Source: Tsuneonella litorea (lineage in GTDB: Bacteria; Pseudomonadota; Alphaproteobacteria; Sphingomonadales; Sphingomonadaceae). Taken from it: a stretch of 64,000 bases of DNA. The position numbers were made by a program, and so were the translations under genes. The stretch lies in NCBI RefSeq assembly GCF_025154015.1, contig NZ_JAOAMV010000001.1:558001-622000 (forward strand), read 5' to 3'. Below the pieces are notes generated by a model. That model made no database searches. It was not told the origin of the DNA and worked only from the letters and a program-made list of their open reading frames with translations. Positions 5,202-23,781 of the stretch are shown one piece after another. The stretch's first letter is position 1. Each line of letters opens with the position of its first letter.

Positions 5202-6164
5202 TCAGATATCTCCGCCAGTAAGTCTTTGACAAATAAGGTCAAGTTGATCGAGCGTGCGGTACCGGATCGTGACGGCTCCAGACCGCGGATCCTCGTCGGT
5301 CTTGATCCGCACGGTAAGACCGAGGAACTCTTCCAGGTGGCGCTGCACCGCGGCGATATCGGCATCCTTCGCGGGGTCGCGAGGCACCCGCGCCTGCCTG
5401 CGGGCGGATTCTTTCCCGTTGGTGCGGCGCACGAGCGATTCGACCTCGCGCACCGAGAGATTGTCGCGCGCGGCGCGGGCGGCCAGCGATTCCGCTTCGG
5501 GATGGCCGATCAGCGCACGGGCGTGTCCCATCGAGAGCTGCGCTTCCTCGACCAGGTCGAGCACCGCCTCGGGTAGCTGCAACAGGCGCTGGAGGTTGGC
5601 GACGTGGCTGCGCGACTTGTCGACGAGCGAGGCGATCTCGGCCTGGCTCATCCCTTCCGAATCGGCAAGACGCTGGTAGGCGCGTCCCTCTTCGACCGGG
5701 TTGAGATCCTCGCGCTGGAGGTTCTCGATCAAGGCGAGGGCCATGACCTCGCGCTCGTCGAGATCGCGCACGAGCGCGGGTATCTCGTGCAGGCGCGCCT
5801 TTTGCGCGGCACGCCAGCGGCGCTCTCCCGCGACGAGCTGGTAACGCCCCCCGGCAAGCGGCCGGACGATCACCGGCTGGATGACCCCGCGCTGCGATAT
5901 CGATGCCGCGAGTTCCTCCAGTGCAGCCTCGTCGAATCGGCGGCGTGGCTGGCCCGGCAAGGGCTCGATCGCCGAAACCGGCAGGGACGCCAGGCCTCCT
6001 GCCCGGGAAGCATCTGATTTACCGGCGCTTTCTCCCTTGACGAGTGGTTCCTCGCGACGGGTTTCACCCATCAGCGCACCCAGTCCCTTGCCAAGCCGCT
6101 TGCGCGAATCGTCCCTGGGCCGCTCGGGGATGGAAAAACGGATAGGATCGGTCGGTTCGCTCAT
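5202..6164 (-). CDS. parB: Chromosome-partitioning protein ParB
   Basis: A 320-residue CTP-dependent DNA clamp that loads at parS and spreads, working with ParA in origin segregation. The N-terminus has the ParA-stimulating KRLGKGLGALMG motif (22-33). The CTP-binding domain shows GERRWRAA (113-120) and ENLQREDLN (147-155). A helix-turn-helix that reads parS (around MSQAEIASLVDKSRSHVANL) and a C-terminal dimerisation segment follow. The ATG at 6164 is chosen because a GGAAGG ribosome site precedes it and it overlaps the parA stop (ATGA). Four parS sites lie 0.8-3.3 kb upstream in the same operon. Confidence 0.97.
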   Translation of the reverse strand: MSEPTDPIRFSIPERPRDDSRKRLGKGLGALMGETRREEPLVKGESAGKSDASRAGGLASLPVSAIEPLPGQPRRRFDEAALEELAASISQRGVIQPVIVRPLAGGRYQLVAGERRWRAAQKARLHEIPALVRDLDEREVMALALIENLQREDLNPVEEGRAYQRLADSEGMSQAEIASLVDKSRSHVANLQRLLQLPEAVLDLVEEAQLSMGHARALIGHPEAESLAARAARDNLSVREVESLVRRTNGKESARRQARVPRDPAKDADIAAVQRHLEEFLGLTVRIKTDEDPRSGAVTIRYRTLDQLDLICQRLTGGDI

Positions 6165-6937
6165 GCGGCCTTCCTTTCGGCGGGCAGGCGCCCGATCAGC
6201 TCGCGTGCCAACGCCATGTAAGCGCGGCTGCCGGTGCAGTTGTGATCGTAGACAAGCGCCGGAAGGCCATGGCTGGGTGCCTCCGACAGGCGCACGTTCC
6301 GCGGGATCACCGCTTCGAACACCAGAGGGCCAAGACACGCGCGGACGTCGTCTGCGACCTGGTCGGTCAAACGGTTGCGGCGGTCAAACATCGTCAGGAC
6401 GACCCCGATGATGCCGAGATCGGGATTGAAGCGTTGCTGCACCCGCTCCACGGTGAGGAGAAGCTGGGACAATCCCTCGAGCGCGAAGAACTCGCACTGG
6501 AGCGGAACGAGCAGCGTGTCCGCCGCGCCGAGCGCGTTGAGCGTGAGAAGACCGAGAGACGGCGGGCAATCGATGAAGGCGATCTCGTGCCCGCGATGGT
6601 CGGCCAATGCAGCCGTCAGCCGGGCGGTCCGGTCCTCGACGTTGACCAGCTCCACCTCGGCACCTGACAGATCAACGGTCGCAGGGACGATGTCGAGCCC
6701 GGGGATCGACGTGGCACCGACGCAATCACCAAGTGCAGCCCCTTCGACCAACAGGTCATAGCTCGATCGGTGGCGATCCTCGCTCGAAATTCCCATCCCG
6801 GTCGATGCATTGCCCTGAGGATCAAGATCGATCAGCAAGGTTTTCCAACCGGTTGCGGCCATCGCCGTAGCGATGTTGATCGCCGTGGTCGTCTTGCCGA
6901 CCCCGCCCTTCTGGTTGGCTACAGCGATTGTGATCAT
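6161..6937 (-). CDS. parA: Chromosome-partitioning ATPase ParA
   Basis: A 258-residue Walker-type ATPase. The deviant Walker A KGGVGKTT is at residues 10-17 and is followed by DLDPQGNAS, diagnostic of ParA/Soj. The protein forms a DNA-bound gradient that pulls ParB-parS complexes toward the pole. The ATG at 6937 places the P-loop at the normal distance from the N-terminus; the frame stays open further upstream but without similarity. Its stop overlaps the parB start by 4 bp and it begins 8 bp after the rsmG stop, so it belongs to an mnmE-mnmG-rsmG-parA-parB transcription unit. Confidence 0.97.
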   Translation of the reverse strand: MITIAVANQKGGVGKTTTAINIATAMAATGWKTLLIDLDPQGNASTGMGISSEDRHRSSYDLLVEGAALGDCVGATSIPGLDIVPATVDLSGAEVELVNVEDRTARLTAALADHRGHEIAFIDCPPSLGLLTLNALGAADTLLVPLQCEFFALEGLSQLLLTVERVQQRFNPDLGIIGVVLTMFDRRNRLTDQVADDVRACLGPLVFEAVIPRNVRLSEAPSHGLPALVYDHNCTGSRAYMALARELIGRLPAERKAA

Positions 6938-6945
6938 TGTCCGGC

Positions 6946-7569
6946 TTACTCCGTCAACCGCCCCGTCACGATACCGGCCTCCGGATCGCTGACCGATTGT
7001 TCCACGTGGAACATACTGCGCAGCCGCTTGGGCAGTTCGTTCACTTCCTGCGCCGCCGAGCGCCCCTTGGGCAACAACCAGACTGTGTCGGCTGTGGAAA
7101 AACGCCGGCCGATTGCGATCGCCTTCGGAAGCGGCGCGAAGGCGCGCGCACTCAGGACGGCCGCTTCTTCCGCCGGCAGGACCTCTGCGCGGCCATGGCT
7201 CACCTCGCACTTATCAAGCCCCAGGGCATCGATGCAAGACGAGAGCCATGCGCTCCGCAAACGCCGCGATTCCACGAGCTTAACGTGAAGATCGGGTCGC
7301 ATCATGGCGATCACGAGGCCTGGAAATCCCGCTCCCGATCCCAGGTCCACCCACGTTCCACGTGGAACCTGCGGCGCGAACTCGAGCAGCTGAGCACTAT
7401 CGGCTATGTGGCGCTGCCACACGTGGTCCAGGGTCGCCGCCGCAACCAGGTTCTGCCGCTCGTTTTCCTCGACCAGCAGGTCGATGAACCGTCCGATTCG
7501 CGCCATGGCCCGCTCGTCGCAACGCGCCGCGACGTAATCCATCGAATCCCGCTCACCCACGAGGATCAT
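6946..7569 (-). CDS. rsmG: 16S rRNA (guanine-527-N7)-methyltransferase RsmG
   Basis: A 207-residue SAM-dependent methyltransferase (old name GidB) that methylates G527 of 16S rRNA. It shows the conserved RHIADS (53-58), the SAM-binding [11 protein letters not shown] (74-84) and KLVES after the next strand. The start at 7569 overlaps the mnmG stop (ATGA); an alternative ATG nine codons in is less favoured. Two parS sites are built into this coding sequence, at the codons for VPRGTW and for SMFHVEQ, showing that the protein sequence tolerates the ParB sites. Confidence 0.95.
6998..7013. promoter_or_regulatory. parS site 1 (inside rsmG)
   Basis: TGTTCCACGTGGAACA, a perfect 16-bp palindrome matching the near-universal parS consensus TGTTYCACGTGRAACA. 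It lies in the rsmG 3' part, 61 bp before the parA start. ParB would nucleate here. Confidence 0.95.
7354..7369. promoter_or_regulatory. parS site 2 (inside rsmG)
   Basis: CGTTCCACGTGGAACC; the inner 14 bases GTTCCACGTGGAAC are a perfect palindrome and match the parS core. The outermost pair differs from the consensus T/A. Confidence 0.88.
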
Positions 7570-9416
7570 GCCACTTCCTGCTGGCGCCGCCTTGCGTGCA
7601 CGAGGACGGCTGCCAGTGCCGCCGGAGTGATCCCGGGTACCCGACCGGCCGCCGCCATGGTTGCCGGGCGAGCGGCCTCGAGGCGATCCACCATTTCGTT
7701 GGACAGTCCGGGAACCGTGCGAAACGGAAACGCGGGGTCGAGCGCCAAGCTCTCCGAGGCACGCAGTTCGCGCAGTTCGGCCTCTTGGCGCGCAACATAG
7801 GGGGCATAGGCGGCATCTTCGGCCAATTCGATCCCCACCTCGTCGGTGGCGAACCCGGCCGGTAGCCAAGGCCCGAGGCTGCCCGGTTCCAGCCCCTGCG
7901 CCAGCCAGTCCGACAGGGGTTGGCGCGGCGTGTCCCGGCGCGCCGGGACGCCCGCCTCGAAAAGAACCTTTCCGGATACTCCAGTCTCCAAGGCGGCGTT
8001 CCACGTGGAACGCCGTTCCTCGCGCTTCCTGTACCACTCAAGACGATCAGGTCCGATACATCCGGATTCGATGGCCAGCGGGGTAAGCCGCGTGGTAGCA
8101 TTGTTGGCGCGCAGACGAAGGCGGTATTCGGCGCGCGCGGTCAGCATCCGGTACGGTTCGGACACGCCGTGCAGCGTCAGGTCGTCCACCATCACGCCCA
8201 GATACGAATTCGCCCGATCGAGCGCGAGCGGTATCCGATCGAGAGCCTGCGCGGCTGCGGCAGAACCGGCGACGAGTCCCTGGGCTGCTGCCTCTTCATA
8301 CCCGGTCGTGCCGTTGATCTGGCCGGCGCAATAGAGCCCGGGCATGACCCGGACCTGGAGATCGCGGCCGAGCGCGCGCGGGTCGATGTGGTCGTATTCC
8401 ACAGCGTAACCGGGGACGGCGATATCGGCTTGCTCAAGCCCGGGCATCGAGCGGACCATCGCCAGTTGCACATCAGCGGGGAGCGAGGTGCTGATCCCGT
8501 TGGGATAGACCAGGTGGGTGTCGAGGCCCTCCGGCTCGAGGAAGACCTGATGGCCATCGCGATCGCCGAAGCGGTGAATCTTGTCCTCGATCGAGGGGCA
8601 ATACCGCGGCCCCTGTGCGCCGATCGCACCACTGAACAAGGGCGACCGGTGGAGCGCGCCCCGAATGAGATCGTGGGTCCGCGCATTCGTCCGCGTGATC
8701 GCGCAGGCAAGCTGGGCGTTGCCCCGGTGCGGGCTCAAGGGCGACATGATCCAATGGTCGCTGTCCGAGGGTTGCTCCTCGAGCATGGCCCAATCGATCG
8801 TCCGTCCGTCGAGCCGGGGCGGCGTGCCGGTCTTGAGCCGCGCCATCGGCAACTCCGCCGCGCGCAACTGCTCGGCGAGGCGATGGGCCGCGCCTTCCTC
8901 GATCCGGCCGCCCTCGAACCGTTCCTCTCCCCGGAACAGTCGCCCGCCCAGGAACGTGCCGGTGCACAGGACGACAGACTTGGCGGCGATCGCTGTCCCA
9001 TCGGCCAGCACGATCCCTGCGACCCGACCTCCGTCCATGCGCAGCGCCGCTGCCTCGCCCTCCACCACTTCGAGCTTGCCCTGTCGCCTGAGCTGACTCT
9101 GGATCGATTTGCGAAACAAGGTCCGGTCTGCCTGCACTCGCGGGCCCCAGACCGCACTGCCCTTGGACCTGTTGAGCATTCGGTAATGGATTGCCGCGGC
9201 ATCGGCCGCTCGCGCGATCAGGCCGTCGCAGGCATCCACCTCGCGTACGAGATGGCCCTTCCCCAGCCCGCCGATCGCCGGGTTGCAGCTCATCGCCCCG
9301 ATCGCAGCGCGATCGAATGTCACCAGCGCGACGTGCGCGCCCATCCGCGCGGCAGCGGCCGCTGCCTCGACTCCGGCGTGTCCGCCGCCCACCACGATGA
9401 TATCGAACCGGTGCAT
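7566..9416 (-). CDS. mnmG: tRNA U34 carboxymethylaminomethyl modification enzyme MnmG (GidA)
   Basis: A 616-residue FAD protein that, with MnmE, installs cmnm5U at the wobble position of certain tRNAs. The FAD-binding GGGHAG is at 10-15, followed by the family's [20 protein letters not shown] block and a second conserved block around [12 protein letters not shown] and the [16 protein letters not shown] signature. The ATG at 9416 is used because the 13 codons before it open with a TTG and precede the FAD fold. It is flanked by mnmE upstream and rsmG downstream, the usual order. parS site 3 is embedded in its 3' third; parS site 4 sits just upstream. Confidence 0.96.
7997..8012. promoter_or_regulatory. 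parS site 3 (inside mnmG)
   Basis: CGTTCCACGTGGAACG within a 20-bp perfect palindrome (7995-8014). The parS core is intact while the outermost bases extend the symmetry as GC pairs. It encodes RSTWNA of MnmG. Confidence 0.88.
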
Positions 9417-9464
9417 ACTGACCCTGCCCGTAGGCGAGCGCGGTTTACGCGTCAAAGCGTGCGC

Positions 9465-9480
9465 TGTTCCACGTGAAACA
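9465..9480. promoter_or_regulatory. parS site 4 (mnmE-mnmG intergenic)
   Basis: TGTTCCACGTGAAACA, matching TGTTYCACGTGRAACA at all 16 positions. It abuts the mnmE stop codon (9481) in the 64-bp gap before mnmG. Confidence 0.93.
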
Positions 9481-10752
9481 TCACTTTCCGATGCAGAACC
9501 GACCGAAAAGGCCGTCGAGCATGTTCTCGGTCGAAGCTCGCCCGGTCAGGCGGTCGAACGCCAACCGGGCTAGCCGCAACTGTTCGGCGAGGATAAGCGG
9601 CCTCGTCTCACCCATGGCATGGCGCAATTCGTCTGCCGCCACAACCAATGCAGCTCGCTGACGCTGGTTGAGTGCCACCTCACCGGGGACCAGAAGCAAG
9701 CTGCCTGCGCGATCGACCAGCACGCGCCAGAGTCCGGCTATGCCGGCACCCGTCATCGCCGAGACAGTGGCAACGGCGCCCGACTTGGAAGGCCCGGGAA
9801 GGTCGGACTTTGCTGCCACCTCGACCGCGCCCGCCGGCCCCTCCCCTTCGGCGCCGAGCCACAGCACGATGTCCGCCCGCGCCAGTTCCGCCCCCGCCCG
9901 CTCGATTCCGATGATCTCCACCGCATCCGTGCCGCCCGAGCGAAGCCCGGCGGTGTCGACGAGGACGAATGGCACGCCTTCGACCGCGACGGGCCGCTCT
10001 ATCACGTCGCGTGTGGTGCCGGCGATGTCCGTGACAATGGCTGCCTCCGTATCCAGTAGAGCATTGAATAAACTCGATTTTCCGGCATTTGGAGGGCCAG
10101 CGAGAACGACCCTGACACCGTCGCGGAGGCGTTCTGCCGATGGACGTGCCAGCCAGGCGTCGATGTCCGTGCCCAGTTCCCCCACCCGGCGCGAAAAATC
10201 CGCGGGCAGCCCGCCCACGTCATCTTCGTCACCGAAGTCGAGGACTGCCTCGACCGCCGCCGACAGTTCGAGCACGCGCTCGCGCCATACCTCGACCTGA
10301 CGCGAAAGCGCACCGCCGGCCATCGCCACCGCCGCGCGCCGCTGGCTCTCGGTCTCGGCCGCAAGCAGGTCGGCGAGGCCCTCGGCTTCCGCAAGGTCGA
10401 TCCGCCCGTTGGCGAACGCGCGGCGGGTGAACTCCCCCGCCTGCGCCCGGCGCAGCCCCGGCATGCGGGCAAGTTCGGTCTCGACCGCGGCGACGACCGC
10501 CCGCCCCCCATGCAGGTGCAGCTCGGCGATGTCCTCTCCGGTCGCGGTCCGGGGGCCCGGCAGCCACAGCACCAGCGCCCGGTCGAGCGCGCCGCCCTCG
10601 GCACCGCGCAAGGTGGCGGCGGTCGCCCGGCGAGGTTGCGGAACGTTTCCCGCGAGCCGTTCGAGCGCGCCGCGCGCGTGGCTGCCGCTGATGCGCACGA
10701 CCGCGATCCCGGCGGGCGGTGCGCCGCTCGACAATGCGAAGATCGTGTCCAT
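9481..10752 (-). CDS. mnmE: tRNA modification GTPase MnmE
   Basis: A 423-residue GTPase, partner of MnmG in wobble-uridine modification. The formyl-THF-binding N-terminal domain begins [12 protein letters not shown] and includes the conserved [19 protein letters not shown] (102-120). The G domain has the P-loop GPPNAGKSS (219-227) and DTAGL (266-270). The C-terminus ends in CIGK, the invariant catalytic Cys motif. The ATG at 10752 matches the family start; in-frame sequence further upstream is unrelated. It begins 37 bp after the DUF6489 stop and is likely co-transcribed through to parB. Confidence 0.96.
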
Positions 10753-10789
10753 GCCGAAGTGCGGGCGGGCGCGAGGCCAGTCCCGCGCG

Positions 10790-11056
10790 CTAGCCTTCCT
10801 TGCTGCCCTTGCCCGCCTCGCCGGAGCGGCTCGCCGCCGCAGCGCCTTCGACGAAGTTCTGGAACAGCTTGAGCCCCACCTGACCCATCGGCGCAACCTG
10901 GGACGCGTATTCCTGCAGCTTTTCGATGTTGCCAACGCCCTTCATCGCCTTGGTCACCGCGTCGACGTAGACGTCGTTGACCTTGCCGACGTCGGGCAGA
11001 CCCATGAAGGTTCGGGCCTCCTCGGGGGTGCAGTCGATCTCGATATGGACCTTCAT
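10790..11056 (-). CDS. Small conserved protein (DUF6489-like)
   Basis: An 88-residue protein beginning MKVHIEIDCTPEEARTFMG, with an AGGAG ribosome site 6 nt upstream. It resembles the alphaproteobacterial family I know as DUF6489, often encoded near mnmE. After a short beta strand it is mostly helical (KVNDVYVDAVTKAMKGVG, LQEYASQVAPMGQVGLKLFQNF), and it has an Ala/Gly/Ser/Lys-rich tail. No function is known to me. It is the likely first gene of the mnmE-mnmG-rsmG-parA-parB unit and is divergent from the hydrolase gene at 11153. Confidence 0.7.
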   Translation of the reverse strand: MKVHIEIDCTPEEARTFMGLPDVGKVNDVYVDAVTKAMKGVGNIEKLQEYASQVAPMGQVGLKLFQNFVEGAAAASRSGEAGKGSKEG

Positions 11057-11851: not shown

Positions 11852-13468
11852 ATGATCAACCGCGCCCAGTGGCGCTGGTCGGCGAACGTGGGCACGCGGT
11901 TCGCGCTGCCGATCGTTCTGGCGATCCTGTCGATCGCTTTCGTGCTGCTCGGCGACAGGTGGCCGTGGCTGCTGCTGGTCACGCTTCCGCTGCTGGGGAT
12001 CGCGGCGTGGGATTTCTTCCAGGACGACCACACGCTGCGGCGCAACTACCCGCTGCTGGCCCGCGTGCGCTGGATCATGGAGGACCTGCGCCCCTACGCC
12101 CGCGCGTACGTGGTCGAGGGCGACCTCGAAGGCCGGCCGTTCAATCACGACGAGCGGGCGCTGGTCTATGCGCGGGCCAAGGGAGAGCTCGATTCGCATC
12201 CGTTCGGAACCGAGCTCGACGTCTATTCCGAAGAATACGAGTGGCTTGCCCATTCCATCGTGCCCAACGCCCAGGCACCGCTCGAATGGCGGGTCCCGGT
12301 TGGCAGTTCGCAATGCGCGCGGCCCTACGAAGCGGCGCTGCTCAACATCTCTGCGATGAGCTTCGGCTCGCTGTCGGCGAACGCGATCATGGCGCTCAAC
12401 AAGGGTGCTGCGGCCGGCGGCTTCTACCACGACACCGGCGAAGGCGGCCTCTCGCGCTACCACCGCTCGGGCGGCGGCGACCTCGTGTGGGAGATCGGCA
12501 GCGGATACTTCGGATGCCGCGATGCCAACGGCAACTTCGATCCGGCGCGCTTTGCCGAGACCGCCCAGATCGATCAGGTGAAGATGATCGAAATCAAGCT
12601 GAGCCAGGGCGCGAAGCCAGGGCACGGCGGAGTGCTCCCCGGTTCAAAGGTCAGCGCGGAAATCGCCGCTACCCGCGGCATCCTTCAGGGCCACGACTGC
12701 GTGTCACCCCCCGCGCACGCGACCTTCTCCACCCCCACCGGGCTGCTCGATTGGGCGGCGAAGCTGCGCGACCTGTCCGGCGGGAAACCCGTGGGCGCGA
12801 AGCTGTGCGTGGGCCAGCCGCACGAAGTCTTCGCGCTGATGAAGGCGATGCGCGAAACCGGCATTCGGCTCGACTACATCGTCGTCGACGGAGCGGAAGG
12901 CGGGACCGGGGCCGCACCGGTGGAACTGTCGAACCGGGTGGGAATGCCGCTGCGCGAAGGATTGATCCTGGTCCGCAACGCGCTCGTCGGGTCGAGGCTG
13001 AAGGACGAGGTCAAGCTTGCCGCGGCCGGCAAGATTCATTCGGGCGCGGGTATGGCGATCAACTTCGGACTCGGCGCAGACTGGTGCAACGCCGCGCGCG
13101 CGTTCATGTTCGCGCTGGGCTGCGTGCAGTCGATGCGCTGTCACGAGGACACCTGCCCGACCGGGATCGCGACACAGGATGCCACCCGCCAGCGCGGGCT
13201 GGTGGTCGCCGACAAGGCAGAGCGGGTCGCACGCTTCCAGCGCCAGACTTTGCATGGCTTGCGCGAAATGGTCGTCGCGATGGGTCTGGACAACCCCTGG
13301 CAGATCGAGCCGTTTCACATCAGCGAAAGGCTCGACGGCGCGCGCGCCGCGCCGATCGACGAGATCTACGGCTTTCTCGGGGAAGGTGCGCTGCTCGACG
13401 ATCCCGACGCGACGCAGTATGCCCGCTACTGGGCGGCCGCACGGGCCGACAGTTTCGGGAGAGGTTGA
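11852..13468 (+). CDS. FMN-binding glutamate synthase-like protein
   Basis: A 538-residue protein: two N-terminal membrane helices (about 14-33 and 36-53), then a full glutamate synthase central FMN barrel with SAMSFGSLS, KPGHGGVLPGSKV, the EGGTGAAP loop and a Cys-rich CHEDTCPTG motif near residue 430 like the 3Fe-4S site of GltB. The glutaminase and C-terminal domains of true GOGAT are absent, so it is not ordinary glutamate synthase; homologues of this stand-alone, membrane-linked type are widespread but not well characterised. It follows the hydrolase stop directly and overlaps the next gene by one base. Confidence 0.88.
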   Translation: MINRAQWRWSANVGTRFALPIVLAILSIAFVLLGDRWPWLLLVTLPLLGIAAWDFFQDDHTLRRNYPLLARVRWIMEDLRPYARAYVVEGDLEGRPFNHDERALVYARAKGELDSHPFGTELDVYSEEYEWLAHSIVPNAQAPLEWRVPVGSSQCARPYEAALLNISAMSFGSLSANAIMALNKGAAAGGFYHDTGEGGLSRYHRSGGGDLVWEIGSGYFGCRDANGNFDPARFAETAQIDQVKMIEIKLSQGAKPGHGGVLPGSKVSAEIAATRGILQGHDCVSPPAHATFSTPTGLLDWAAKLRDLSGGKPVGAKLCVGQPHEVFALMKAMRETGIRLDYIVVDGAEGGTGAAPVELSNRVGMPLREGLILVRNALVGSRLKDEVKLAAAGKIHSGAGMAINFGLGADWCNAARAFMFALGCVQSMRCHEDTCPTGIATQDATRQRGLVVADKAERVARFQRQTLHGLREMVVAMGLDNPWQIEPFHISERLDGARAAPIDEIYGFLGEGALLDDPDATQYARYWAAARADSFGRG

Positions 13469-13872
13469 TGAGCGCCGAAAAAGGCCTGCAGAACTGGCAC
13501 CGGGTCCTCGAAGGCGGCAATCAGCCCGAAGATCTGGCGGCCATCATCCGCGAGGACGCGGTATTCCATTCGCCGGTTGTCCACACGCCGCAACGCGGCC
13601 GGGCGCTGGTCGTCGCCTACCTCGCAGCGGCAGGCGTGGTGCTCAACACCGACAAGTTCCATTACATGCGCGAATTCAGCGGGGGCGACAACGCGCTGCT
13701 CGAATTCGTCACCGAGCTCGACGGCATCCACATCAACGGCGTCGACATTATCACGTTCGACGACGACGGCATGATCGCCGACTTCAAGGTCATGGTCCGC
13801 CCGCTGAAGGCGATCAACAAGGTCTGGGAAATGATGGGAGCGCAGCTCGAGCGCTCAGTATCGACAAGTTAG
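13468..13872 (+). CDS. NTF2-like (SnoaL-type) small protein
   Basis: A 134-residue protein with the cone-shaped alpha/beta pattern of the NTF2/SnoaL fold: an N-terminal helix (LQNWHRVLEGG), IREDAVFHSPVVHTP, then strands rich in aromatic and acidic residues (ALLEFVTELDGIHINGVDIITFDDDGMIADFKVMVRP). Members act as small-molecule isomerases, cyclases or dehydratases, or just bind ligands. Its ATG overlaps the upstream TGA (TGATG), so it is coupled to the FMN protein and probably acts in the same pathway. Confidence 0.8.
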   Translation: MSAEKGLQNWHRVLEGGNQPEDLAAIIREDAVFHSPVVHTPQRGRALVVAYLAAAGVVLNTDKFHYMREFSGGDNALLEFVTELDGIHINGVDIITFDDDGMIADFKVMVRPLKAINKVWEMMGAQLERSVSTS

Positions 13873-13894
13873 GGGCGACTGCTAGAAACGGCGC

Positions 13895-14749
13895 ATGCCG
13901 CGCCAACTCATAGTTTATTGTGATGAGTCTTCGAAGAAGGGACCGCACTTCTCCAATTTCTACGGAGCTTCGATCATCAAGTCAGAAGATCTAGCTGTAA
14001 TAGAGAATGCATTGAACGAGCGCGTTCAGCAACTTGGCCTAACATGTGAGGTGAAATGGAACAACATTTCACCAAGTACGCATGAGCGGTTCATCGCAAT
14101 CATAGATACCTACTTTGATTTCGTGCGCGACGGATTCATCAAATTCAGGTGCCTTTTTACGCAAAATATATGGGTTCCGCTCGGCCTTACGCATGACCAG
14201 CACCGAAACGCCTATTTTTTGCTATACTACCAGTTCATCAAAAATGGATTGGGCCTGTCGTCATACGACCGCCAGTTCGGCGACAGAGACCTACGCTTGA
14301 TCTTTGATCAATTTCCGCGAAATGCGGAGCACATCGCAACTTTCAAGGATTTTTTGGCGAGACTGAATCGTCGAACGCTCGCCTCCAACGGACTTAATTT
14401 GCAGCCAGAGAACATCGGCGAGGCCAAATCACACTCTCACATTATCCTGCAATGCACAGATGTTGTGCTAGGATCGATGCACTTTCGATTAAATGACCTC
14501 CATTTGGCCAAGCCCCTTGGGCAACGTCGGCGGGGCAAGAAAACTCGGGCAAAAGAGAAGGTCTACCAGCACATTTCACGACGCATCCGAGACATTTATC
14601 CCCATTTCAACATCGGTATCAGCACTGGACATCAAGGCAATCGAGCAAACAGGTGGCTCCATCCTTACCGGCACTGGTTATTCATTCCGCGATTGCGGGC
14701 CTACGATAAGGCTATGGGAAAGAAGAAAAAAACTCTGCACGAGCTATGA
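13895..14749 (+). CDS. DUF3800 domain protein (putative nuclease-like, acquired)
   Basis: A 284-residue protein with the DUF3800 hallmarks: an N-terminal strand ending in YCDES (8-12), a short FYGASII strand, a helix with ERFIAIIDTYFDF, a central RDLRLIFDQF strand, and a later SHIILQCTDVVLGSMHF segment with an acidic residue. The spacing of acidic residues suggests an RNase H-like fold, an inference. The gene is clearly unlike its neighbours: lines 14161-14220 plus 14341-14400 hold 56 G/C of 120 bases, against 44 of 60 at 12421-12480. It uses AT-rich codons and has a weak ribosome site. Proteins of this family turn up as lone genes in defence or mobile islands; its role here is unknown. Confidence 0.75.
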   Translation: MPRQLIVYCDESSKKGPHFSNFYGASIIKSEDLAVIENALNERVQQLGLTCEVKWNNISPSTHERFIAIIDTYFDFVRDGFIKFRCLFTQNIWVPLGLTHDQHRNAYFLLYYQFIKNGLGLSSYDRQFGDRDLRLIFDQFPRNAEHIATFKDFLARLNRRTLASNGLNLQPENIGEAKSHSHIILQCTDVVLGSMHFRLNDLHLAKPLGQRRRGKKTRAKEKVYQHISRRIRDIYPHFNIGISTGHQGNRANRWLHPYRHWLFIPRLRAYDKAMGKKKKTLHEL

Positions 14750-14837
14750 ATCTCTCGATTCGTGCAACAGGATAACCTGAAGCTTCGCTTCGTGCAGAGC
14801 CAGCTTTGAATCTATACACTCTTGACTCCACGTCAAG
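14733..14837. repeat. Short inverted and direct repeats after the DUF3800 gene
   Basis: CTCTGCACGA (14733-14742) and its exact inverse TCGTGCAGAG (14790-14799) enclose the DUF3800 stop codon. AGCTATGAATCT (14742-14753) recurs as AGCTTTGAATCT (14802-14813). CTTGAC/GTCAAG (14821-14837) forms a further small hairpin. The low-GC composition continues to about 14880. This may be the border of the inserted segment or a terminator region shared with rho. Confidence 0.4.
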
Positions 14838-14912
14838 AATCTGAATCGAATTTATTGCGACTCGAACAAACTGGAAACACCTCCCTGCCGCCTGGCGTCG
14901 GCATTCGCGCTC

Positions 14913-16178
<1,266 letters not shown>

Positions 16179-16835: not shown

Positions 16836-17861
16836 TCACCCCCTCCATCCACGCACCGTGTCACGCAGCAGCTCGACGTGCTCGATCGGAGTGTGCTGGC
16901 CGATCCCGTGGCCAAGATTGAAGACGTGCGGGCGATCGGCGAATGCTGCAAGGATTGCTTCGGTCCGGCGCACCAGCCGGTCGCCGCCCGCCAGCAGCAG
17001 TAGGGGGTCGAGGTTGCCCTGCACCGGCATTCCGGCGGGCAGCGCGCGCGCCGCCCATACGGGTTCGACGGTCTCGTCGATCCCGATGGCATCGACCCCC
17101 GTCTCGCGGGCATAGGCCGCCAGCTTGGCACCCGCGCCCTTGGGAAAGCCGATCACCGGTGCGTGCGGGCAGCGCGCCTTGACCGCGGCGGCGATCGCGG
17201 CGTTGGGGGCGATCACCCAGCGTTCGAACTCGTCGGGAGCGAGGCTGCCCGCCCAGCTGTCGAACAGCTGCACGGCCTCCGCCCCCGCCTCGATCTGGCC
17301 GACGAGGTAATCGACCGTGACATCGGCGATGGCATCGATGATGGCCTGGAAGGCGGCCGGGTCGCGGTAAGCCAGTTCGCGAGCGGCATGCTGGTCCTTG
17401 GACCCCTCGCCGTTCACCATGTAGGTCGCCACCGTCCACGGACTCCCGGCAAAGCCCAGGAGGGTCGTCTGCGGCCCGAGCCCGGCCTTCACGGCGGCCA
17501 CGGTCGCATAGATCGGCTCGAGGCGCTCAGGGACCCCCTCAAGGGCCACCAGCGCATGATCGGCGAGCCGGGGGGAGAGGTGGGGACCTTCGCCGGCAAG
17601 GAACTGCAGCTCCTGCCCCATCGCATAGGGCACGATCAGGATGTCGGAAAACAGGATCGCCCCGTCGAACCCGAACCGGCGGATCGGCTGGAGCGTCACC
17701 TCGGCCGCGGCGTCGGTATCGTACACCAGCTCGAGGAACCCGCCCTTCTCCGCCCTCAGCGCGCGATATTCGGGCAGGTAGCGCCCGGCCTGGCGCATGA
17801 GCCACATCGGAACTGCCTCGCCCCGATTTCCGCACAGAGTGTCGAGAAGCAAGCCGGGCAT
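16836..17861 (-). CDS. hemE: Uroporphyrinogen decarboxylase
   Basis: A 341-residue enzyme converting uroporphyrinogen III to coproporphyrinogen III in haem synthesis. The signature RQAGRYLPEY is at 23-32, with FSDILIVPYAMG and GFAGSPWTVATYM further on. A TTG five codons upstream is open but has no ribosome site, so the ATG at 17861 (GGAA upstream) is used. It is the left-hand neighbour of the predicted replication origin, as in Caulobacter, where the hemE promoter lies within oriC. Confidence 0.96.
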   Translation of the reverse strand: MPGLLLDTLCGNRGEAVPMWLMRQAGRYLPEYRALRAEKGGFLELVYDTDAAAEVTLQPIRRFGFDGAILFSDILIVPYAMGQELQFLAGEGPHLSPRLADHALVALEGVPERLEPIYATVAAVKAGLGPQTTLLGFAGSPWTVATYMVNGEGSKDQHAARELAYRDPAAFQAIIDAIADVTVDYLVGQIEAGAEAVQLFDSWAGSLAPDEFERWVIAPNAAIAAAVKARCPHAPVIGFPKGAGAKLAAYARETGVDAIGIDETVEPVWAARALPAGMPVQGNLDPLLLLAGGDRLVRRTEAILAAFADRPHVFNLGHGIGQHTPIEHVELLRDTVRGWRG

Positions 17862-18176
17862 CGGGTCTGATTCCAATTCAAGTAAGATTCTTAGATAAGA
17901 TGAAGGAGTCTGTTGGCCCTGTGGATTTCGGGGACAGCGGCGCCCTGCCCGATTTTTCCCGCGCTGACCAGAATTTCAGGGCCCTCGAATCGCGATGAAT
18001 CCGCGTCAACCAAAGCTTGTCCACGCTATCCCCGGCCTGTCGAAAAGCTTGTCGCCATGTCCACAAGCCTCGTCGCGGAATCGGGTCAGCGGGCATGAAA
18101 CGCCCCGGTTCGCTTGTCCCCGGTTCTCTCCCGTGGTTTATGCCGCGCATTCTCCACAGGCACCCGTCAGGAGCCG
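17862..18176. other. Predicted chromosomal replication origin (oriC)
   Basis: This 315-bp gap lies between divergent hemE and ppsR, the exact position of Caulobacter oriC, and the genes to the right follow the Caulobacter order ppsR-maf-aroE-coaE-dnaQ. DnaA-box-like nonamers: TGTGGATTT (17920-17928, reverse strand AAATCCACA), TTGTCCACG (18017-18025), ATGTCCACA (18057-18065) and TTCTCCACA (18150-18158). Five GANTC sites occur at 17869, 17886, 17987, 17997 and 18078. AAAGCTTGTC is repeated at 18012 and 18044, and GCTTGT/ACAAGC (18047-18068) forms an inverted repeat. An AT-richer stretch (17871-17905) could be the unwinding element. No box is a perfect TTATCCACA. Confidence 0.8.
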
Positions 18177-19022
18177 ATGCCCCGCCTTCACCTTCACCTG
18201 CTGTCGGATTCCACCGGCGAGACGCTGGAGATGATCGCCAAGGCCGCGCTCGCGCAGTTCGAGGAAGCGGAAGTCCAGCGGCATTTCTGGCCGATGGTGC
18301 GCAGCCGCCAGCACCTCGACCGGATCGTGCCCGATCTTGCCGCGAACCCGGGGCTGGTGCTGTTCACCCTCGTCAACGACGAGACCCGCGCCCGGCTCGA
18401 GGAGCATTGCCGGCACCTCGGCCTGCCGGCGGTCCCCGTGCTCGACGCGGTGACCGCCGCGCTCGAGAGCCATCTCGGCCAGGAGGCGCACGGACGCCCG
18501 GGCCGCCAGCACGCGATGGACGCCGCCTATTTCGCGCGGGTCGAGGCGATCCAGTACACCATCGCCCACGACGACGGCATCGCGCACGAGGACTGGGAGG
18601 CGGCGGACATCGTGCTTGCGGGCGTGTCGCGCAGCTCGAAGACGCCGACGAGCATCTATCTTGCCAACCGCGGCTACAAGGTGGCCAACATTCCGCTGGT
18701 CGTGGAAAGCCCGCCTCCGCCCGCGCTGTTCTCGCTGCGCCACCCGCTCGTGGTCGGGTTGACGACCTCGCCCGAACGACTGGTCCAGGTTCGCCGCAAC
18801 CGCCTGCTGACGATCGCCGAGGGCCGCGAATCGAGCTACGCGGATGCCGAACGGGTGGCGGAGGAAGTGCGCTTCGCCCGGCGGATGTTCGCCGACAACG
18901 ACTGGCCGGTGATCGACGTCACCCGCCGATCGATCGAGGAAACCGCCGCCGCGGTGATCCGGCTGCTGTCGGAGCGGCGGGCGCGCGGCGCGCCGCCGGT
19001 CGTCGGACCCAAGCCGATATGA
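18177..19022 (+). CDS. ppsR: Pyruvate, water dikinase (PEP synthetase) regulatory protein
   Basis: A 281-residue DUF299 protein, a bifunctional ADP-dependent kinase and phosphate-dependent phosphorylase that switches PEP synthase or pyruvate phosphate dikinase. The nucleotide-binding [11 protein letters not shown] is at 149-159, and the N-terminal [11 protein letters not shown] block is conserved. The ATG at 18177 has GGAG upstream (CAGGAGCCG). It is the right-hand flank of the predicted origin and heads a chain of genes overlapping by 4 bp each. Confidence 0.93.
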
Positions 19023-19600
19023 CGATCGTGCTCGCCTCGAAAAGCGCGTCGCGCGCCGCGATGCTGACGGCGGCGGGTGTCGCGTTCGAGGCGTGCCCCG
19101 TACCCATCGACGAGCGCGCGCTCGAGGCATCGCTGGCCGGTGCCCGGCCGGACCAGGTCGCGCTGGCGCTGGCCGAGGCAAAGGCGCTGGCGGTCTCCGC
19201 GGAAGACCGGCTCGTTCTCGGCAGCGATTCGCTGGTGGTCGTGGGCGACCGCCGGTTCGACAAGCCCGCCAGCCGCGCGGAGGCCGCCGAGCACCTGCGC
19301 GCCTTCTCGGGTCGGGCGATGCAGCTCCACTCGGCCGCCGCGATCGCCCGCGGCGGAACGATTGCATGGCGCCATGCGGCCATCGCGACGCTGCAGGTGC
19401 GTCCGCTCGGCGATGCGTTCATCGAAAGCTACCTCGATGCCGAATGGCCCGCGGTCGCGCAGTGCGTCGGCGTGTTCCGGATCGAGGCGCGCGGCGTCCA
19501 GCTGTTCGAGCGCATCGAGGGCGATCATTTCACCGTGCTCGGAATGCCGCTGCTCGCGGTGCTGGGGGCGCTGCGCGACCTGGGCGAGGTGCCCGCATGA
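19019..19600 (+). CDS. maf: Maf-like nucleotide pyrophosphatase
   Basis: A 193-residue Maf/YhdE family protein, hydrolysing non-canonical or modified nucleoside triphosphates. It opens [14 protein letters not shown], the family's phosphate-binding SxSxxR pattern, and has a conserved [10 protein letters not shown] strand where many members read GADT. The start overlaps the ppsR stop (ATGA) and the stop overlaps the aroE start (ATGA), so translation is coupled. Confidence 0.9.
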
Positions 19601-20454
19601 GCCGCCCCTACGCCGAAGTGATCGGAGACCCGATCGCGCAATCGAAATCGCCCGCGATACACCGGTTCTGGCTCGGGAAGCTGGGCATCGACGCCGATTA
19701 CCGCGCGTGTCACGTGACGCCCGATGCGCTTGCCGAATACATCGCCGGCCGGCGCGAGGATCCTGACTGGCGCGGCTGCAACGTGACGATGCCGCACAAA
19801 CAGGCGGTCATGCCGCTGCTCGACCGGCTCGAGATCGGCGCCGAACTCGTCGGCGCGGTGAACACGGTGACCCGGCGCCACACCGGCGCGCTGATCGGCA
19901 GCAACACCGACGTCGGCGGCTTTCTGGAGCCATTGGCGGGGGAACTGGGCGATACGCACTATTTCCGCATGGCGCGGGTGCTCGGAACCGGCGGCGCGGC
20001 GCGGGCGGTCGTCGCCGGCCTGGCCGACAACGGGTTCACCATCGTCCTCGCCGGGCGCGATGCGGGCAAGGCGCGCGCGATCCTCGACGCGATCGATCCG
20101 GGCGGCGATCATCACGCCGCCCCGCTTGCGCACTTCGCCGATACCACCGACTTCGCGTTCGATGACCGCGCGGGCTGTCTCGACCTGGTCGTCAACGCGA
20201 GCCCGCTGGGAATGCGCGGGCAGCCGCCGCTGGCATTCGACTGGAGCCACGCACCGCCGGGCGCGATCGCCTACGACATCGTGACCGACCCGCTCGACAC
20301 GCCGTTCCTGCGCGATGCGCGCGCTGCCGGTCACCGCACGGTCGACGGCCTCGCGATGCTGATCGGCCAGGCCGCCCTCGCCTTCGAGCGGTTCTTCGGC
20401 CGCTCGCCCCCGCGCGCATTCGATGCCGATCTTCGCGCGATGCTGCAGGCATGA
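19597..20454 (+). CDS. aroE: Shikimate dehydrogenase
   Basis: A 285-residue NADPH-dependent enzyme reducing 3-dehydroshikimate to shikimate in aromatic amino-acid synthesis. SKSP (16-19) and NVTMPHK (62-68, with the catalytic Lys68) mark the substrate site; NTDVGGF follows, and GTGGAARAV is the nucleotide-binding loop. Its start and stop overlap maf and coaE by 4 bp each. Confidence 0.95.
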
Positions 20455-21044
20455 GCCGCCCCTTCATCCTCGGCCTGACCGGATCGATCGGCATGGGCAA
20501 GTCGACCGTGGCCGCGATGTTCGAGGCGGCCGGCGTCCCGGTGTTCGATGCCGACGCGGTGGTGCGCCGGCTGCAGGGGCGCGGCGGCGCGCTGCTTCCC
20601 GCGATCGAGGCCGCCTTTCCCGGCTCGACCGGCCCCGACGGGGTCTTGCGCGAACAGCTCGGCGCCCAGGTCTTTGCCGACCCCCAGGCGCTCGCGCGGC
20701 TCGAGAGCATCGTCCATCCCGCTGTCGCCGCAGAGCGGCAGGCGTTCATGATCGAACACGCAGGCGAGCGGCTGGTGGTGTTCGACATCCCGCTGCTGTT
20801 CGAAAAGGGCGGATGGGAGCAGGTCGACGCCGTGGCGGTCGTTTCCGCTCCGCCCGAAGTCCAGCGCGCGCGCGTCCTTGCCCGGCCTGGCATGACGCCC
20901 GAGAAATTCGCGCATATCCTTTCGCTGCAGGTGCCCGACGCCGAGAAACGCGCAAGGGCCAACCACGTGATCGACACCGGGACGACGCTAAAGAAGACCG
21001 AGGACGCGGTTAAGTCGCTGATCGAGAAGGTTGCCGGGACATGA
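20451..21044 (+). CDS. coaE: Dephospho-CoA kinase
   Basis: A 197-residue kinase for the last step of coenzyme A synthesis. The P-loop GSIGMGKST is at 11-19, DADAVVRRL contacts dephospho-CoA, and the LID region follows VFDIPLLFEKGGWEQVD. The ATG overlaps the aroE stop. The gap to dnaQ is 64 bp. Confidence 0.95.
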   Translation: MSRPFILGLTGSIGMGKSTVAAMFEAAGVPVFDADAVVRRLQGRGGALLPAIEAAFPGSTGPDGVLREQLGAQVFADPQALARLESIVHPAVAAERQAFMIEHAGERLVVFDIPLLFEKGGWEQVDAVAVVSAPPEVQRARVLARPGMTPEKFAHILSLQVPDAEKRARANHVIDTGTTLKKTEDAVKSLIEKVAGT

Positions 21045-21108: not shown

Positions 21109-21795
21109 ATGCGTGAAATCGTGTTCGATACGGAAACCACCGGCCTCGACCCGCGAACGGGCGACCGGATGGTCGAGATCGGCTGCATCGAACTGGTCAA
21201 TCGGGTCCCCACGGGTGCGACGTTTCACGCCTATTTCAATCCCGACCGCGACATGCCGGAACAGGCGGAAGCGGTGCACGGGCTGTCCGCCGCGTTCCTG
21301 TCGGACAAGCCGCGTTTTCGCGACACGTGCGACCAACTGCTCGCCTTCATCGCCGATTCCCCGCTGGTCGCCCACAACGCCGGGTTCGACTTCGCCTTCC
21401 TGAATGCCGAACTCGACCTGTGCGGGCTCGAAGCGGTGTGCATGAGTCGGATGGTCGACACGGTCGCCATCGCCAAGCGGCGGCATCCGGGCGCGAAACT
21501 GTCGCTCGATGCCCTGTGCACCCGGTACGGGATCGATCGCAGCCACCGGGTCAAGCACGGCGCGCTGCTCGATGCCGAATTGCTCGCCCAGGTCTACGTC
21601 GAACTCACCGGCGGGCGGCAGATCGGGTTCGCGCTGGCCGCCTCGGGCGGTGACGAGACGATCGTCGAGCCCGCCTTTCAGCCCGCGCGGGACCGGGCCT
21701 TCCGACCGCCGCGCCCGCACGCTCCCACCGCCGCCGAAATCGCGCGTCACGGCGCATTCGTCGGCGGAATCGAGGGAGCCATCTGGTCTGGCTAG
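21109..21795 (+). CDS. dnaQ: DNA polymerase III epsilon subunit (3'-5' proofreading exonuclease)
   Basis: A 228-residue DEDDh exonuclease. ExoI: Asp7 and Glu9 in FDTETTG; ExoII: HNAGFDFAFL; ExoIII: HGALLDAELLAQVY with the catalytic His and Asp. A C-terminal tail rich in Arg, Pro and Ala follows, which probably binds the polymerase alpha subunit. It proofreads the replicative polymerase and lies 3 kb from the predicted origin. Confidence 0.95.
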   Translation: MREIVFDTETTGLDPRTGDRMVEIGCIELVNRVPTGATFHAYFNPDRDMPEQAEAVHGLSAAFLSDKPRFRDTCDQLLAFIADSPLVAHNAGFDFAFLNAELDLCGLEAVCMSRMVDTVAIAKRRHPGAKLSLDALCTRYGIDRSHRVKHGALLDAELLAQVYVELTGGRQIGFALAASGGDETIVEPAFQPARDRAFRPPRPHAPTAAEIARHGAFVGGIEGAIWSG

Positions 21796-23445: not shown

Positions 23446-23781
23446 ATGGAGGGGCGACTGCCCGCGCACATAGAGGTCGCGGGGATTCGCCGCCTTGCCG
23501 AATCGCTCGGCGGGTTCGCGACGGTCCTCGCGAAAGGCGAGCGCGACGCGGGAACGATCGCGATCGTAATTATCGGTCGCGGTGAACCCGCGGCGCTTTA
23601 CGAACGTATGCCGCAACTCGACGGGAACCGTCGTTTCGTTCTGTCTGTTGAAGAAATATCTGAAAAAAAACAAGAATTCTCCGATATTCTGGCGCGCAGG
23701 ACGGCGCGGGACCCCGATTTGTGGTTAATCGAGGCGGATGTCCCGGATAAGGAACGGTTCGTCGCAGGTTTGCCCGCCTGA
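23446..23781 (+). CDS. DUF1491 family protein
   Basis: A 111-residue protein typical of the alphaproteobacterial DUF1491 family: RLPAHIEVAGIRRLAESLGGFATVLAKGERDAGTIAIVI, then a central YERMPQLDGNRRF and a helical end. It has no signal peptide, and the fold and function are not known to me. It begins 4 bp after the thioesterase stop, so it is probably the end of the hpf-ptsN-thioesterase transcription unit. Confidence 0.85.
   Translation: MEGRLPAHIEVAGIRRLAESLGGFATVLAKGERDAGTIAIVIIGRGEPAALYERMPQLDGNRRFVLSVEEISEKKQEFSDILARRTARDPDLWLIEADVPDKERFVAGLPA

Follow-up and report, generated by a model that had tools for sequence, protein, structure and literature searches.

The intergenic gap between hemE and ppsR (positions 17862-18176) is very probably the chromosomal replication origin (oriC) of Tsuneonella litorea, as judged by sequence comparison. 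The location, proposed in an earlier note on this DNA, is supported by gene order, a cluster of DnaA-box-like sites, GC skew in relatives, parS-like sites, and the conservation of sites across homologous gaps. The window, that is, the whole stretch of 64,000 nucleotides analyzed, corresponds to C11:558001-622000 in an assembly of 3.03 Mb and 32 contigs. As hemE starts at an ATG at 17861 (-) and ppsR at an ATG at 18177 (+), the coordinates of the gap are exact.

The region displays several features of a hemE-type alphaproteobacterial origin: divergent hemE and ppsR/COG1806 genes around the gap, a DnaA box cluster at up to two mismatches (five in 315 bp), parS and parAB nearby, and, if the terminus is set opposite, a switch in strand composition in 5/5 closed relatives. 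Such hemE-side origins, and dnaA genes distant from them, are already in print for the order, and the gap is ordinary of its kind. The oriC is placed near hemE in Sphingopyxis granuli, with the same predicted for most Sphingomonadaceae in DoriC (PMC4741004), and also in Novosphingobium sp. PP1Y (PMC4059872). Among the literature matches listed, no title concerned the Erythrobacteraceae's own origin.

Gene order and sites of the predicted origin

The genes flanking the gap, and the maf, aroE, coaE and dnaQ genes to its right, are arranged as the earlier note had described (Table 1). The order ppsR-maf-aroE-coaE-dnaQ is also that on the right side of the Caulobacter oriC. As for the flanks themselves, hemE and COG1806 (ppsR) are those of the Caulobacter crescentus Cori, as described in PMC1914354. 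In all 50 gaps read, including that of T. litorea, hemE and ppsR are divergent neighbors (30/30 in a first set, 20/20 in a later one); these gaps derive from the 56 genomes with ppsR among 60 searched, the remaining six with ppsR being left out. Phage records gave no match to the region.

Table 1. Features of the predicted origin and its surroundings (window coordinates)
Feature	Position	Strand	Remarks
mnmE, mnmG, rsmG, ParA-like, parB genes	5202..10935	-	Outer limits of open frames
parS-like site TGTTCCACGTGGAACA	6998..7013	.	
parS-like site TGTTCCACGTGAAACA	9465..9480	.	
hemE	16836..17861	-	Left flank
Predicted chromosomal origin (oriC)	17862..18176	.	hemE-ppsR intergenic gap
Further GANTC sites	17869, 17886, 17997, 18078		
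AT-rich stretch, candidate unwinding element	17870..17914	.	Beside hemE-side box; putative function
GANTC	17906..17910	.	Kept in 73/104 gaps
DnaA-box-like site AAATCCACA	17920..17928	-	Predicted; TCCACA core in 97/104 homologous gaps
GANTC (CcrM target)	17987..17991	.	Kept in 97/104 gaps, N = A (55) or C (42)
DnaA-box-like site TTGTCCACG	18017..18025	+	Predicted; commonest form among relatives TTATCCCCA
Weak tandem site CTATCCCCG	18026..18034	+	Mostly CTNTCCCCA-like in relatives; absent from earlier note
Weak DnaA-box-like site TTTTCGACA	18038..18046	-	Two mismatches; fifth site beyond the earlier note's four
DnaA-box-like site ATGTCCACA	18057..18065	+	Only TGT kept >90% in 104-gap alignment
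Promoter-like TTGTCC-N17-TTTATG	18114..18142	+	In front of ppsR
DnaA-box-like site TTCTCCACA	18150..18158	+	Predicted; TCCACA core in 91/104 homologous gaps
ppsR (DUF299/COG1806)	18177..19022	+	Right flank
maf	19019-19600		Downstream of ppsR; clear family match, below curated cut-off
aroE	19597-20454		Downstream of maf; clear family match, below curated cut-off
coaE	20451-21044		Downstream of aroE
dnaQ	21109-21795		Downstream of coaE

The four boxes listed in the earlier note, at 17920 (-), 18017 (+), 18057 (+) and 18150 (+), are present. They are imperfect with respect to the Escherichia coli consensus, as stated there, and the gap contains zero perfect boxes. It does contain five 9-mers resembling TTATCCACA (two mismatches or fewer) and three exact TCCACA motifs. 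Across 304,000 bases of the same genome (the window and 20 stretches of contig C11), any 315-bp stretch with at least five such 9-mers or at least three TCCACA overlaps the gap, which is the densest DnaA-box-like 9-mer cluster in the 304 kb scanned.

The decamer AAAGCTTGTC does recur 32 bp apart (18012 and 18044), and falls outside the columns conserved at 90% or more in the 104 homologous gaps. The hairpin claimed in the earlier note is rejected as a feature, folding no better than shuffled sequence (z -0.74; 16/100 shuffles fold equally well or better). Within the gap, AT content over 45 bp peaks at 0.69, in the stretch beginning at 17870; the highest value in the window as a whole is 0.73, at 23634. 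The box at 17920 satisfies a loose DnaA-trio rule, which asks for three or more NAN trios no farther than 16 bp from a box, like 3/57 box-like sites within the window. A BUS (DnaA box plus DnaA-trios) was nonetheless discarded, the rule being satisfied in 20/104 gaps versus 33% of shuffles, more rarely than in shuffles. For IHF (consensus WATCAANNNNTTR), the T. litorea gap has no site within two mismatches, and the 104 gaps have 56 sites at one mismatch versus 15.4 in shuffles.

Conservation and methylation sites in homologous gaps

For a deeper alignment, 80 further named loci were added; 107 of 110 loci gave a gap, and 104 distinct gaps remained after removal of three exact duplicates. The three omitted loci (L206, L231 and L241) lack hemE, and L206 and L231 hold fewer than 400 bases before ppsR. 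Three motifs are enriched in the 104 gaps relative to flanking coding DNA and to shuffles: TCCACA (6.62 vs 0.10 per kb; 226 sites vs 17.6), TCCCCA (3.51 vs 0.11 per kb; 120 vs 19.6) and GANTC (13.4 vs 2.24 per kb; 458 vs 128). At the first box (17920) the core is kept in 97/104 gaps, while the commonest leading three bases reach 41, 70 and 63%; at the last, TCCACA at 18153 is kept in 91/104, with the commonest leading bases at 51, 94 and 36%. Both predicted boxes retain their TCCACA core across the aligned gaps, with drift at the first and third bases. These conservation counts are not independent, because the genomes are close kin. The alignment provides a testable map of the origin bases that are kept, namely box cores rather than all box positions, together with a methylation palindrome that is free to vary at its middle base. 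The A or C found in the middle of the GANTC at 17987 is expected if the palindrome, and not the letter, is under selection.

The genome encodes GcrA and a CcrM-like protein, the latter scoring 604 bits, below the model cut-off of 830. Only five perfect TTATCCACA sites occur in the genome, one of them (G000:C22:527861-527869; locus L325, about 2314-2322) just upstream of the CcrM-like gene. Its surroundings contain several GANTC and a nearby TCCGCGTCAA block, which is also found in the origin gap. Elsewhere in the window, nine GANTC lie within about 210 bp at 14748-14957, in the interval that separates a DUF3800 gene from rho and overlapping both gene ends, a density greater than that of the origin gap. 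The DUF3800 gene (13895-14749) occupies a low-GC patch (0.556 in 13001-15000 vs about 0.65-0.67 around it) and was possibly acquired.

The Sphingopyxis granuli TFA/DoriC oriC shares the hemE position, conserved gene organization and several conserved putative DnaA boxes, and also has a putative unwinding element (PMC4741004); compared by description, the T. litorea group differs in its variable first and third box bases and the rarity of perfect boxes. The Caulobacter Cori likewise has several DnaA sites of varied strength and an AT-rich part (PMC1914354, PMC5043019). Unlike Cori, none of the 104 gaps contains a CtrA site of the form TTAA-N7-TTAA, so that a Caulobacter-type, CtrA-regulated origin is not indicated. 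This absence is expected: according to a review, CtrA sites are seen in the origins of Caulobacters, possibly in that of Rickettsia, and in no others (PMC4468827). TTAA alone occurs 56 times versus 91 in shuffles, yet at 1.64 per kb versus 0.20 in flanking coding DNA.

GC skew, parS and alternative readings

Skew was sampled in spaced stretches, 75-140 kb apart, covering 14-20% of each of five closed (single-contig) relatives. For every candidate origin, the half-chromosomes on either side were contrasted, with a correction for gene direction and the terminus set opposite. Relative to the hemE-ppsR gap, the best skew origin is offset by 149, 35, 31, -12 and 33 kb. Adjusted t values are 5.30, 4.17, 4.47, 6.37 and 4.14 at the gap versus 1.37, 2.96, 1.23, -2.31 and 0.94 at dnaA, and pooled z scores are 10.9 and 1.9, respectively; the underlying difference between half-chromosomes is weak, about 0.02. 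The skew switch that the earlier note expected at the gap is borne out in all five closed relatives, where the switch is nearest the gap and the contrast weaker at dnaA. In T. litorea itself, skew on its own contig runs in the right direction (left -0.0044, right +0.0032) without significance (p 0.26), and inside the window the cumulative skew reaches its minimum near 26-28 kb rather than at the gap. A fit with a looser terminus, covering three of the five relatives (G002, G003 and G009), was less clear, with the best origins offset from the gap by 249, -365 and 311 kb. Compared with these optima, the gap scored lower by 3.35, 0.87 and 1.64 log units, and dnaA by 5.59, 0.56 and 9.41; in 30-42% of bootstraps the origin lay no more than 200 kb away from the gap.

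The two parS-like sites in the window sit among the parB, ParA-like, rsmG, mnmG and mnmE genes, the ParA-like match being below curated cut-offs. In searches of whole genomes at up to two mismatches, 9/9 genomes had parS-like sites, all of them toward hemE and 7.7-11.8 kb away from ppsR, and a reversed parS control pattern gave a match in 1/9.

An origin adjoining dnaA, as in many bacteria, is extremely improbable here. Four single-contig genomes (G002, G039, G053 and G058) do begin at dnaA, and in G003 the looser fit made dnaA slightly better than the gap and so did not separate the two. Against this, skew and parS disfavor dnaA, where the skew contrast is the weaker in 5/5 closed relatives. 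In T. litorea, dnaA shares a contig with the gap at a distance of about 504 kb, a difference from Cori, and this distance differs among relatives; in Sphingomonadales dnaA is not kept close to the origin and parAB may be a good anchor, according to PMC8116508. The four genomes above begin at dnaA even though ppsR, which marks the likely origin, lies about 81-510 kb away. The present assignment places the origin in a genus with at least one closed genome (G002) numbered from a distant dnaA, allowing analyses of replichores, gene dosage and skew to be corrected.

It is also improbable, if less so, that the gap is merely a divergent hemE/ppsR promoter region at which DnaA and GcrA/CcrM act as transcription regulators, with the origin elsewhere. 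Such a reading would fit the presence of GcrA and the CcrM-like gene, and a TTGTC-N18-TTTAT pair, promoter-like, precedes ppsR in 84/104 gaps; a sigma-70 consensus scan detected no promoter. GANTC is moreover enriched in intergenic regions of most alphaproteobacterial chromosomes (PMC8116508), nine sites lie at 14748-14957, and methylation in the gap may serve promoters rather than the origin. The parS sites (9/9 genomes) and the skew contrast (5/5) nevertheless indicate the gap, nothing else in 304 kb matches its box cluster, and promoter and origin roles can coexist. At 18114-18158, the conserved pair is followed 7 bp downstream by a DnaA-box-like site, so DnaA may also regulate ppsR.

With the hemE-ppsR gap as the origin, DnaA would bind the conserved array of loose boxes, in which the core, TCCACA or TCCCCA, is constant and the first and third bases vary. 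It would then open the AT-rich stretch on the hemE side, after which forks would leave both ways, and ParB on parS, about 9-11 kb away, would separate the new origins. Through the GANTC sites, CcrM could read the origin's methylation state.

DnaA residue 435 and loose boxes

The earlier note suggested that this lineage may use degenerate DnaA boxes, and the comparison within the family agrees. DnaA of the T. litorea group reads DHST, and other readable members of the order read DHTT (residue 435 being unreadable in 3/50 genomes). A perfect TTATCCACA occurs in 1/24 gaps of genomes with Ser435 versus 7/9 with Thr435 (Fisher 6e-5); the third box position is A in 16/60 versus 22/32. As the genomes are related, this association, strong within the family, may reflect one event. 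Position 435 contacts bases, and Ser is common there in Epsilon- and Deltaproteobacteria; in one epsilonproteobacterium the boxes are degenerate at the first three bases (PMC5043019).

It is possible, albeit unlikely, that the group's DnaA, with Ser at E. coli Thr435, reads a shorter core of about TNTCCACA, that the array was rebuilt from loose boxes, and that timing depends on CcrM methylation of conserved GANTC and not on CtrA. Ser435 alone as the cause of loosening failed one independent check. A separate Ser435 lineage (G368 and G429) retains TTATCCACG boxes with A at position 3, as does G301, of the same genus but without the Ser pattern; Ser435 alone is therefore insufficient to account for the loosening. 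In a class sample, 11/387 genomes matched the Ser pattern, which was limited to TCN codons. Both matches in G267 are not dnaA, and those in G229, G356 and G231 are dnaA-like, in genomes that yielded no hemE-ppsR gap for comparison.

Scores for the DnaA ATPase domain (G000:C11:72219-72701 and relatives) are 169.5-175.8 bits in the nine searched members of the family, and 234-242 bits in four genomes from other families of the order. These lower scores suggest that the DnaA of the family may have diverged.
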